Position numbers and translations under genes: made by a program
NCBI GenBank assembly: GCA_944325945.1
Contig: CALVBW010000007.1
Span: 1 to 57,363, forward strand
DNA: 57,363 bases
Origin: Candidatus Gastranaerophilales bacterium
GTDB lineage: Bacteria; Cyanobacteriota; Vampirovibrionia; Gastranaerophilales; Gastranaerophilaceae
Direction: 5' to 3'
Part shown: piece after piece, positions 2,897 to 45,315 of the stretch
How the letters are laid out: each line of letters opens with the position of its first letter
How positions within the stretch are numbered: position 1 is the first letter of the stretch
The notes under the pieces: model-generated
The model's input: the letters and a program-made list of their open reading frames with translations, nothing else
Databases searched by the model: none
What the model was told of the DNA's origin: nothing

Positions 2897-3796
2897 TTAA
2901 ATCCACGGATAATCATCCGAAATTTTCCAGCCGTCACGACGTATTTTTTCGGCACAACACTGCCCACTACCGGTAAGTGAACAATCCGCATTGACTTCTT
3001 CATTTGAAGAGTTAGCACATTCCAGCTTCATCACACCATTTGCAAAATCGGATTGAAAAACAAATACATCTTTTCCTAATATATTAGGTCCCTCTGTTCC
3101 ATTTATATCCACTACCCCATGAGGAGATGACGTATACAGTGCATCTTTATACTCGTTTCCTTCTGAATCACTATATCGATTCCAATACATTATACTAAAA
3201 TAGTAGGCAATACCGTCATTTGTCGTAAAATATACTCTGCCCGCATCATATTTCGTAAAAACGGATGTATCCATCACCCTTCCATTTAAATATTTAAAAG
3301 CATAACACCATTCTGCTGAGTCACTATATGGACATATATTATCCTGAGATAATTCCGGCGCCCTGAAATAATTCAATACATATAGATTAAAAAACTGTTC
3401 AGTTTTCTCTGCTGACACAGCACCAGATAAAGCACTATAACTATTATCGGCATATAACAACTTTGTCATGTTACTTAATATTGAATATGCTTTTTGTAAT
3501 TTTGCAACAGTCTGCTTTTTCTGGTAATTTGTTACCAGCGTCGGGATTGTCATTGCTGCTACTATTCCGATTATGCCGAGGGTGATTAAAACCTCAGCGA
3601 GGGTAAACGCGGCTTTCTTAGAAGATACTAAGTTACTAAGACAGTAAGGCACTAAGCAAGTATTTTGGTCATTCTGAGCACCGGCGAAGAATCTCTTGAG
3701 TAATGAGATCCTTCGGGCTTCGCCCTCAGGATGACATGATACTTCCGTCATCCCGGACTCGTTCCGGGATCTTATTTTATTGAGATCCTGAAACAA
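2897..3796 (-). CDS. Type IV pilin-like protein (copy 1), start uncertain
   Basis: A pilin or pseudopilin. The type III signal KKAA/FTLAEVLITLGII gives cleavage before Phe with Glu at +5, then a hydrophobic helix ending AAMTIPTL. The body is a Cys-containing globular domain with the DINGTEGPNILGKD motif typical of pseudopilins. The C-terminus (QCCAEKIRRDGWKI...) is complete. The start is the problem. The open frame can be read from a TTG at 3796, which would put 63 residues before the cleavage site. A GTG at 3652 would give an ordinary 15-residue leader but has no Shine-Dalgarno. The only good promoter, Shine-Dalgarno and ATG lie at 4041, one base out of frame across a G9 run (see 3797-4041). 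Expression may therefore depend on slippage. If this is an inactive copy, it is broken only at that point. Confidence 0.8.
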   Translation of the reverse strand: MFQDLNKIRSRNESGMTEVSCHPEGEARRISLLKRFFAGAQNDQNTCLVPYCLSNLVSSKKAAFTLAEVLITLGIIGIVAAMTIPTLVTNYQKKQTVAKLQKAYSILSNMTKLLYADNSYSALSGAVSAEKTEQFFNLYVLNYFRAPELSQDNICPYSDSAEWCYAFKYLNGRVMDTSVFTKYDAGRVYFTTNDGIAYYFSIMYWNRYSDSEGNEYKDALYTSSPHGVVDINGTEGPNILGKDVFVFQSDFANGVMKLECANSSNEEVNADCSLTGSGQCCAEKIRRDGWKISDDYPWI

Positions 3797-3955
3797 GTTC
3801 AGGATGACATGGTAAATCCCACCAATGTTCAGTGTGTTGTCCTGCCTCAGGCAGTTCAGGATGACAGGTTCCCTGCGTACGCAACTATATTGGTCCGCCT
3901 TACTATGACTAATGTTTATTCTTAGTGCCTTAGTATCATAGTATCTTAGTAACTT
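3621..3955. mobile_element. MITE-like element inside pilin leader, copy 1
   Basis: The ends are imperfect inverted repeats of about 36 bp built from ACTAAG-type heptamers (3621-3656 and 3921-3955). Between them are palindromes of the gtcatcctgaac / gttcaggatgac type. A closely related element sits at the same place in the second pilin gene (12623-12900). This copy is longer by one extra palindromic unit around 3807-3865. The size, terminal repeats and lack of a transposase suggest a miniature inverted-repeat element. It is open in the pilin reading frame along its whole length. Confidence 0.6.
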
Positions 3956-4041
3956 TACATAACCAATACCGCCAAAACTCTTGTCCTGTCTATCTAGGAG
4001 AGTCGCCCCCCCCCGACATTTTCAAACTCTTTATTTCTCAT
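3797..4041 (-). other. Out-of-frame pilin leader with G9 slippery tract, copy 1
   Basis: On the minus strand, AAGGAGG (4054-4048) precedes ATG 4041-4039, and nine codons later comes a run of nine G (4014-4006). As written, the frame ends at TAG four codons after the run. With 10 G (or 7) there is no stop for 82 codons and the frame joins the pilin at 3796, giving a 381-residue product with a 145-residue pre-cleavage leader. The second pilin locus has exactly the same layout. Candidate phase-variation or transcriptional-slippage site; an assembly error in the homopolymer is the main alternative. Confidence 0.65.
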
Positions 4042-4065
4042 GGCTTTCCTCCTTATTTTGGAATT

Positions 4066-4094
4066 ATTATAACAAAAATTATAATTTTGTACAA
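4066..4094 (-). promoter_or_regulatory. Promoter of pilin copy 1
   Basis: TTGTAC (4094-4089) and a perfect TATAAT (4071-4066) are 17 nt apart on the minus strand, followed by AAGGAGG and ATG 4041. The -35 box overlaps the -35 of the divergent symporter promoter in a TTGTACAA palindrome. Confidence 0.7.
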
Positions 4095-11895: not shown

Positions 11896-12798
11896 TCAAA
11901 TTTGATTTTTTATAATTTTGTCAATCATAGTATGAGTATACTGACCGCCTTCTTCAATCTGCATACATCCGCCGCCATAATATTTAAAGCGTTGCCCGTC
12001 TGATCTTATAAGAAACGAAAACAAATCATGCCCCCATTTATTTGGTCCTTTTTTTCCGTTTACATCAACGGCAATTAACCTGATACCTGCACAAAGTCCA
12101 CTGATAGTACAGGAATCATAAGGAATAATTATTGTACCGTCAGCCAGCACGTACACAGTTCTACTGGTTAAAATAGCATTTTTCCTGAAATTAATGCATC
12201 CTTTTGAGATATATTCCCCGTAATCTTCATATCCGTCAGGCACTTCCGCATCAGGGTTATTAGCATTTGCCACAGTATCCATACCCTCATACTCAGGAAT
12301 ACATCCATCCGCAAAGGCATTACCTTCACACTTTTTTGCAATCTTCAGTAACGAAATAAACTTTTCAGATACATCTAAACAATCTGTTGCCACCTGAATA
12401 TCTGCATTGGAAACACTGTAATAACACTTTGGTAAATAACCGGCATACTGTGCCTGAACATTTGCTAACCCTTGATTAATCAATGCGTATGCTCTTTTAA
12501 ATTGCGTATTTAACGTTTTTTCCTGATAATTACTAATCAATGTCGGAATTGTCATCGCAGCTACTATTCCGATTATGCCGAGGGTGATTAAAACCTCCGC
12601 GAGGGTAAACGCGGCTTTTTTAGAAGATACTAAGTTACTAAGACAGTAAGGCACTAAGAAAGTATTTTTGTCATTCTGTGCACCGGCGAAGAATCTCTTG
12701 AGTAATGAGATCCTTAGGGCTTCGCCCTCAGGATGACATGATACTTCCGTCATCCCGGACTTGTTCCGGGATCTTATTTTATTGAGATCCTGAAACAA
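11896..12798 (-). CDS. Type IV pilin-like protein (copy 2), start uncertain
   Basis: A second pilin or pseudopilin with the same signal as copy 1 (KKAA/FTLAEV, Glu at +5, AAMTIPTL). The body differs from copy 1 beyond the first ~90 residues but keeps the pseudopilin motif DVNGKKGPNKWGHD near the C-terminus. Several Cys may form disulphides. As in copy 1, the open frame reaches back to a TTG (12798) inside repeat DNA. The real promoter, Shine-Dalgarno and ATG (13040) are one base out of frame across a G9 run. A GTG at 12654 would give a normal-length leader but has no Shine-Dalgarno. The 3' end converges on the RelA/SpoT homologue with 4 bases between stop codons. Confidence 0.8.
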   Translation of the reverse strand: MFQDLNKIRSRNKSGMTEVSCHPEGEALRISLLKRFFAGAQNDKNTFLVPYCLSNLVSSKKAAFTLAEVLITLGIIGIVAAMTIPTLISNYQEKTLNTQFKRAYALINQGLANVQAQYAGYLPKCYYSVSNADIQVATDCLDVSEKFISLLKIAKKCEGNAFADGCIPEYEGMDTVANANNPDAEVPDGYEDYGEYISKGCINFRKNAILTSRTVYVLADGTIIIPYDSCTISGLCAGIRLIAVDVNGKKGPNKWGHDLFSFLIRSDGQRFKYYGGGCMQIEEGGQYTHTMIDKIIKNQI

Positions 12799-12900
12799 GT
12801 TCAGGATGACAGGTTCCCTGCGTACACAACTATATTGCTCGGGTTTACTATGACGAATGTTACTTCTTACTGCCTTAGTATCATAGTATCTTAGTATCTT
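12623..12900. mobile_element. MITE-like element inside pilin leader, copy 2
   Basis: The ends are ~36-bp imperfect inverted repeats of the ACTAAG type (12623-12658 and 12866-12900), with gtcatcctgaac-type palindromes between. Most of the length is nearly identical to the element at 3621-3955, though this copy is about 57 bp shorter. It is open in the pilin frame throughout. Confidence 0.6.
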
Positions 12901-13040
12901 TTTCCAACGTATACCGCCAGAACCCTTGCTAATTTCATGCCCCGATATATTTTCTCCAACTTCCTGTTCGGCGGGCCCAGCGGCACGCTGGCTTAGAGGA
13001 GTCGCCCCCCCCCGACATTTTTAAACTCTTTATTTCTCAT
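12799..13040 (-). other. Out-of-frame pilin leader with G9 slippery tract, copy 2
   Basis: The layout is identical to copy 1. AAGGAGG precedes ATG 13040-13038, and nine codons later a run of nine G (13013-13005) is followed, in the ATG frame, by TAA four codons on. Adding one G (or removing two) opens the frame for 81 codons into the pilin at 12798, giving a 381-residue product. The part of this leader between the G run and the repeat differs in sequence from copy 1 yet is also stop-free in that frame. Confidence 0.65.
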
Positions 13041-13064
13041 GGCTTTCCTCCTTATTTTGGAATT

Positions 13065-44547: not shown

Positions 44548-45315
44548 CTATTTTGCCTCTTTACAGCTATGTGCCCCATCCCATGATAATTTTTCGCGAC
44601 AGTGCATATAGTCAAGATTTTTGTTATACAGAACCCATGCAGCGCATCCTCTGCCAATAGTAGATAAGGTTCCGGAACTTTCAGGATCACATTTGTCAAA
44701 AGTATGTATTTCCGGGTAGCCATTTGCTTTCCCTTCTGGTACAAATTTGTCATTGTTAAATACAAAATAAAAAGTATTTTTGCCATGTATTACGTCATTG
44801 CCGGTCGGGACGGTTACCATTATGCTTCCTTGATTATTTGAAAACCAGCCAAACTCAATGTATGTTCCGTCTTGTAAAAACATTCTGGCGTCAGGTGAGG
44901 CACTTACACCAGGTTCTTCTGTTGCAACTTGATTTTCTTCACTAAGTTTTACTCCGGCTAGATTGTAATGTGCTCCGGGATAACAAACTTTTCCTATTTC
45001 ACATACTTTTGATACCTTTAGGTATTTTTGAAAGCGCTCGGATAATAGTTTATTTGCACTGTAATCATATATTATATGGCCGTTTTCGTCAGTTTCACCT
45101 GTATTTGTGGCTTTTAAACCCCATGAACTAAGGTCTCCATATTCGGCTTTAACCATTGTGTAGGCATTTGAAAGTACGGCATAAGCTTTTGTTAATTGTG
45201 AAACAATCTGCCGTTCTTGATATTTGGCAATCAATGTCGGAATAGTCATCGCCGCCACAACGCCGATTATGCCAAGAGTAATTAAAACCTCCGCAAGTGT
45301 AAAAGCTTTTTTCAT
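44548..45315 (-). CDS. Type IV pilin-like protein (copy 3), normal short leader
   Basis: 255 residues with a four-residue leader, MKKA, then FTLAEVLITLGIIGVV with Glu at +5. The body has several Cys (KVCEIGKVCYP, KCDPES, GCAAW) and ends ...GAHSCKEAK. AAGGAG precedes the ATG by the normal distance. Unlike pilins 1 and 2 it has no G run and no inserted element, so it shows what an ordinary start for this family looks like in this genome. Confidence 0.93.
   Translation of the reverse strand: MKKAFTLAEVLITLGIIGVVAAMTIPTLIAKYQERQIVSQLTKAYAVLSNAYTMVKAEYGDLSSWGLKATNTGETDENGHIIYDYSANKLLSERFQKYLKVSKVCEIGKVCYPGAHYNLAGVKLSEENQVATEEPGVSASPDARMFLQDGTYIEFGWFSNNQGSIMVTVPTGNDVIHGKNTFYFVFNNDKFVPEGKANGYPEIHTFDKCDPESSGTLSTIGRGCAAWVLYNKNLDYMHCREKLSWDGAHSCKEAK

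Follow-up and report, generated by a model that had tools for sequence, protein, structure and literature searches.

The window analysed here is the whole stretch of 57,363 nt from contig CALVBW010000007.1 of a Candidatus Gastranaerophilales bacterium (assembly GCA_944325945.1). On its minus strand lies a predicted pilin gene (pilin 1) whose reading frame is separated from its start codon by a run of nine G residues. The features of this locus are as follows.

4066–4093, minus strand: sigma-70-like promoter of pilin 1 (TGTACA at 4093–4088, 16 nt, TATAAT at 4071–4066), assigned by consensus match only
4048–4054, minus strand: Shine–Dalgarno sequence AAGGAGG of the pilin 1 leader, read from the sequence; the module recurs at pilin 2 and at other loci
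3994–4041, minus strand: short zero-frame open reading frame (ORF) of pilin 1, MRNKEFENVGGGRLS followed by a stop, from the ATG at 4041–4039 and ending three codons past the run
4006–4014, minus strand: G9 tract, class A (C-G9-CGACTC), one base short of an open frame
2897–4006, minus strand: pilin 1 frame from the tract, with a long dispersed-repeat leader, AFTLAEVLITLGIIG (from 3610) and the pilin body

The arrangement proposed in the initial annotation, with a promoter, AAGGAGG and ATG 4041 placed 5′ of G9 at 4014–4006, was confirmed on the minus strand. Direct reading of the codons from this ATG (ATG AGA AAT AAA GAG TTT GAA AAT GTC GGG GGG GGG CGA CTC TCC TAG) verified that the start frame closes at a TAG four codons past the run. 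Across the tract lengths tried, one additional G or two fewer opened the frame, as had been claimed, and translation then passes AFTLAEV and reaches the pilin's end; the native G9, G8 and G11 each led to a stop codon. The 82 stop-free codons originally reported for the shifted frame (4041–3797) were correct but too short a measure, because the open frame continues much further, for 368 codons past the run. In the pilin frame a TGA is located at 4024–4022, just 5′ of the G9 run, and no start 5′ of the run can therefore serve this frame.

The window contains a second gene of the same layout (pilin 2), in which the position of the G9 run relative to the gene is identical to that in pilin 1, and an ordinary pilin that served as the comparison gene.

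13047–13053, minus strand: Shine–Dalgarno sequence AAGGAGG of the pilin 2 leader
12993–13040, minus strand: short zero-frame ORF of pilin 2, ending in TAA
13005–13013, minus strand: second G9 tract, class A, off by one like that of pilin 1
11896–13005, minus strand: pilin 2 frame from the tract
44548–45315, minus strand: ordinary pilin without a tract (MKKAFTLAEVLITLG)

A search of the window for runs of at least eight G residues returned four overlapping matches, all from the two G9 runs, against 0.14 expected; the occurrence of these runs is not due to chance. Pilins 1 and 2 both matched PF07963 (N_methyl) and TIGR02532 above the curated cut-offs. Besides N_methyl, neither had any other Pfam match, and neither is an LPXTG sortase-type pilin of the kind found in Bifidobacterium. 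The genome also encodes a prepilin peptidase (PF01478 match over the cut-off).

The initial annotation had proposed a switch for a single pilin; the same reading holds, but on a far larger scale. The host genome (1.63 Mb in 32 contigs) carries 60 tract loci of three classes (41 class A, 11 class B and 8 class C), a count from which seven apparent class A entries that are the antisense of class C were removed by hand. Class A is defined by C-G9-CGACTC, with the variant 3′ flanks CGTCTC, CTACTC or CGACCC in some copies; class B by ATGGGCGCAAATACGCATCACGACTACTTTTCACTCA-G11-CAGTAGC, in which the run is G11 or G10; and class C by AAAGCGGTTCAGATAGTCG-C9-GAAATTAGC. Copies were gathered by pattern searches and from fetched stretches, so that those with other flanks may be missed, and start sites for frame scoring were set by a strict Shine–Dalgarno spacing rule. 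At pilin 1, pilin 2 and the family loci, the reading frame of the pilin is set by the length of the homopolymer tract. Only 4 of the 59 host loci with a scorable start are in frame, yet the pilin bodies are for the most part intact. A degenerate nucleotide pattern for FTLAEVLIT matched 75 places in the same genome. Several host contigs end shortly 3′ of a tract, within pilin loci (L044, L046, L059, L092, L093, L097 and L103); the assembly thus breaks at this repeat family, and more copies may exist than were counted.

Leaders of type IV-like prepilins are short, about 5–30 residues. The leaders at the tract loci range from about 22 to more than 200 residues, and the shortest alone fall within that range; they are very unlike in length and content, yet open. 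The pilin frame is closed by a stop a few codons 5′ of the run, so that no in-frame start precedes the run. At the loci with the shortest leaders (L096, L104 and L124), the pilin frame has no ATG, GTG or TTG anywhere from the upstream stop to the pilin motif. Because no start lies between run and motif at these three loci, the ATG 5′ of the run is the only visible start site.

Run lengths were compared across related genomes, a check that the initial annotation had suggested. Ten genomes of the genus yielded 140 class A copies, 137 of them with an assigned start. Exactly one additional base is needed in 117 of the 137 scorable copies (111 of these are G9), 13 are in frame (10 of them G10, and one, L133 with a GTG start, doubtful), and the remaining 7 need +2 or −1. 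Two copies are brought into frame not by a longer run but by one extra A 5′ of G9 (L049) or by a spacing of 34 between start and run (L142). Class C resembles class A in needing +1, with C9 in 32 of 36 copies, and class B, mostly G11 or an equivalent of equal total length, needs −1 or +2. The class A frame is open into the pilin motif in 114 of 140 copies and to the contig end in 15 more; in the other 11 it closes ahead of any pilin motif and within the contig. Decay of the pilin body behind a fixed closed length, which had been named as the pattern that would speak against a switch, is not what we observed, as most pilin bodies are intact. The segment between start and run occurs as 122 distinct sequences among 135 copies, showing that the class A copies did not arise by recent copying of a single module; they do, though, have a common ancestry and do not count as independent. 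Among 191 genomes of the family, the class A pattern is almost entirely limited to this genus. Matches to the motif elsewhere in the GTDB collection, with unrelated phyla among the matches listed, were judged to be mostly chance and were set aside.

Closely related alleles allow tract length to be compared with its surroundings. L140 (genome G002; G10, in frame) and L148 (genome G010; G9, out of frame) belong to different species and are near identical over about 1.2 kb, differing inside the gene by one substitution besides G10 versus G9. Between L104 and L110 the only change is one of two bases in the tract, with full identity otherwise over more than 700 nt on the downstream side. In these near-identical alleles, which with their ON and OFF states amount to a few pairs only, the tract thus changes faster than what surrounds it. 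Other close pairs keep equal tract length, and in two orthologous pairs both species carry G10. Two class A copies (G10A) require a shift unlike that of their G9 twins. The flanks of L140 and L148 are clearly more diverged than the 1.2-kb block, and the two allele pairs show a similarity suggesting recent exchange of pilin genes between species.

We propose that the G/C runs are slipped-strand phase-variation switches of a default-OFF pilin repertoire, with the tract placed in the prepilin leader, and assign this reading a probability of roughly 60%. Translation would begin at the strong ATG with its strong ribosome site 5′ of the run. With G9 it would terminate three codons past the run (OFF); with G10 it would run on across the leader and the prepilin cleavage site into the pilin (ON), and the prepilin peptidase would remove the leader together with the tract, so that changes in the tract would not alter the mature pilin. 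Since nearly all loci are one base off in the consensus genome, each would be OFF in most cells and one slip from ON. We infer that switching takes place within a clone, that the leader is removed and that a small number of pilins is expressed per cell. For pilin 1 itself, the tract-length ON/OFF switch proposed at the outset stands as the best reading, given the near-identical gene with G9 and G10 and the 13 of 137 copies in frame, but the uniform closed length fits programmed frameshifting too. The occurrence of both poly-G and poly-C, with differing needed shifts, is fitted better by DNA slippage than by one directional ribosomal event.

A precedent of the same anatomy supports, by analogy, switching at the DNA level. 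The sortase-dependent pili of Bifidobacterium breve UCC2003 (bbr_0113 and bbr_1889) are controlled by an experimentally established G-tract ON/OFF switch; the strain as annotated has no visible pili, and placing the ORFs in frame yields them (PMC9187656). As in that gut commensal, a short upstream ORF with a ribosome site is followed by a G tract and an out-of-frame pilin ORF. B. breve differs in having two LPXTG pilus clusters with G11 and G10, whereas here about 60 type IV-like prepilins are found in one genome, the tracts fall into three classes including poly-C, and the tract lies inside a leader that is predicted to be cleaved. The many G/C tracts per genome with frame-dependent ON/OFF control of surface functions also recall the poly-G contingency loci of the Campylobacter phasome (PMC6321876 and PMC8355987); there, tracts reportedly lie in varied genes, whereas here they are concentrated in one pilin family and have a nearly uniform closed length. 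We found no earlier report of such a pilin switch in Gastranaerophilales or Melainabacteria in the open-licence literature. In Neisseria, where pilin and pilC variation diversifies the surface pilus and G tracts are used, silent pilS cassettes recombine into one pilE; unlike in that system, the present family consists of dozens of complete genes, each with its own tract.

Several observations weigh against phase variation. Tract lengths are very uniform, and free switching would be expected to spread them more, unless OFF is favoured; an intact MutS1 should lower slippage rates; and the two orthologous pairs carry G10 in both species. A broken mutS, suspected because of stops inside the gene, was rejected, as the MutS1 ORF is intact over 864 codons.

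The uniformity of the tracts could also reflect programmed recoding, in which G9 would be a fixed site for a −1 ribosomal slip on GGG GGG GGG CGA (−2 in class B) that yields a set minority output of pilin from each G9 gene without any change in the DNA. Although we consider it unlikely, several features of the site argue for it. Besides the uniform length, the phase of the run is the same in most copies of classes A and C, with the same +1 shift in 117 of 137 scorable class A copies, though alleles vary, and the start-to-run distance is mostly a multiple of three (usually 27, otherwise 18–48). The codons GGG and CGA at the site are rare. The wobble base just 5′ of the class A run is near invariant (C in 133 of 135 copies), and the amino acid encoded by this codon varies (N, V, L, I, F, H and others). 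Among the 111 class A copies with G9 in the one-base-off state, 94 have a zero-frame stop in one and the same place right after the run. This stop is created by a Leu codon, which is CTA or TTA in 94 of 94; CTA makes up 2.6% of the Leu codons in the genes of the window. Phase variation alone does not account for the near-invariant C or for the CTA/TTA stop pattern. Shared ancestry may explain part of these regularities, the uniform closed length included. A tail gene of phage Mu uses a programmed −2 frameshift on a G run. Like the programmed G-run frameshifts of Mu and of a recoding survey (PMC3711429), the class A sites present a G run, then C and a nearby zero-frame stop; Mu, however, needs −2 and class A −1, and here tract length differs between alleles. 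The direction of the shift is moreover inconsistent between classes (+1 in A and C, −1 or +2 in B), the two G10A copies need a shift other than that of their G9 twins, and near-identical alleles differ in tract length, all of which argues against a ribosomal site. Downstream RNA structure, which is common at such sites but not obligatory, was not found between +5 and +60 in 40 copies (mean z 0.04).

Transcriptional slippage, in which RNA polymerase adds or drops a base and the resulting mixed mRNA pool gives low expression of all pilins at once, would escape the problem of direction, since either is possible and all three classes fit; the G10A copies, being one base off too, are likewise compatible with it. 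The run length is near that of the RNA:DNA hybrid, which counts in its favour. We nevertheless regard this mechanism as improbable, and the polymerase slippage that the initial annotation offered as an alternative is weakened: in E. coli and Buchnera, lineages other than that of the host, transcriptional insertions at homopolymers were all in A/T runs and none in G/C (PMC5574713). Programmed frameshifting of the two kinds taken together, ribosomal plus transcriptional, keeps a substantial minority chance of being correct. On balance we doubt its specific form of a genus-wide, programmed and non-mutational frameshift (ribosomal or transcriptional), in which the poly-G and poly-C tracts would be versions of one recoding device holding dozens of pilins at low co-expression.

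It is very unlikely that the repertoire is dead, in the sense that only in-frame copies would count and the majority would be pseudogenes or donors silenced for good. The 4 in-frame loci among the 59 in the host and the 11 of 140 class A copies that lose the frame before the motif are in line with this idea, as is the apparent exchange of pilin genes between species, through which silent copies could act as donors; most copies, however, stay open from the tract through very unlike leaders into intact pilin bodies, whereas decay would have closed many frames. An assembly error, with a true G10 from which consensus calling dropped a base, is barely credible, for although homopolymers are error-prone and the same-genus genomes include metagenome or uncultured-bacterium assemblies, G9 recurs in ten genomes and on both strands, and G8, G10, G11 and G12 are reported at similar tracts in the same genomes.

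If phase variation is the correct reading, an uncultured gut lineage would possess a large, single-family phase-variable repertoire whose switch sits in a leader that the mature protein no longer carries. This would account for the closed state of nearly all these pilins in the consensus genome and for the wrong starts that a gene finder relying on the consensus would assign to them, and would offer a testable case of many surface pilins kept silent, one step from expression.

Further observations concern the DNA around the tracts. The antisense of class C (L246–L256) reads C-G9-CGACT, which is the class A sense core, a likeness that may come from a single DNA element used in either orientation or from coincidence over some six bases. 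At L246 and L259 a second AFTLAE occurs inside the leader (KAFTLAEAVGRLYQ... and KKAAFTLAEGATHVDM..., respectively), as if the pilin start had been duplicated or split by an insert. The leaders of pilins 1 and 2 (window positions 3600–3960 and 12592–12910) consist of dispersed repeats, with about 220 nt common to both at 97% identity, and the leader segment CTTAGTGCCTTACTGTCTTAGTAACTTAGTATCTT is roughly inverted and complementary to a stretch lying farther upstream. These repeats have the look of palindromic or MITE-like elements that entered immediately ahead of the prepilin cleavage site without disturbing the frame.
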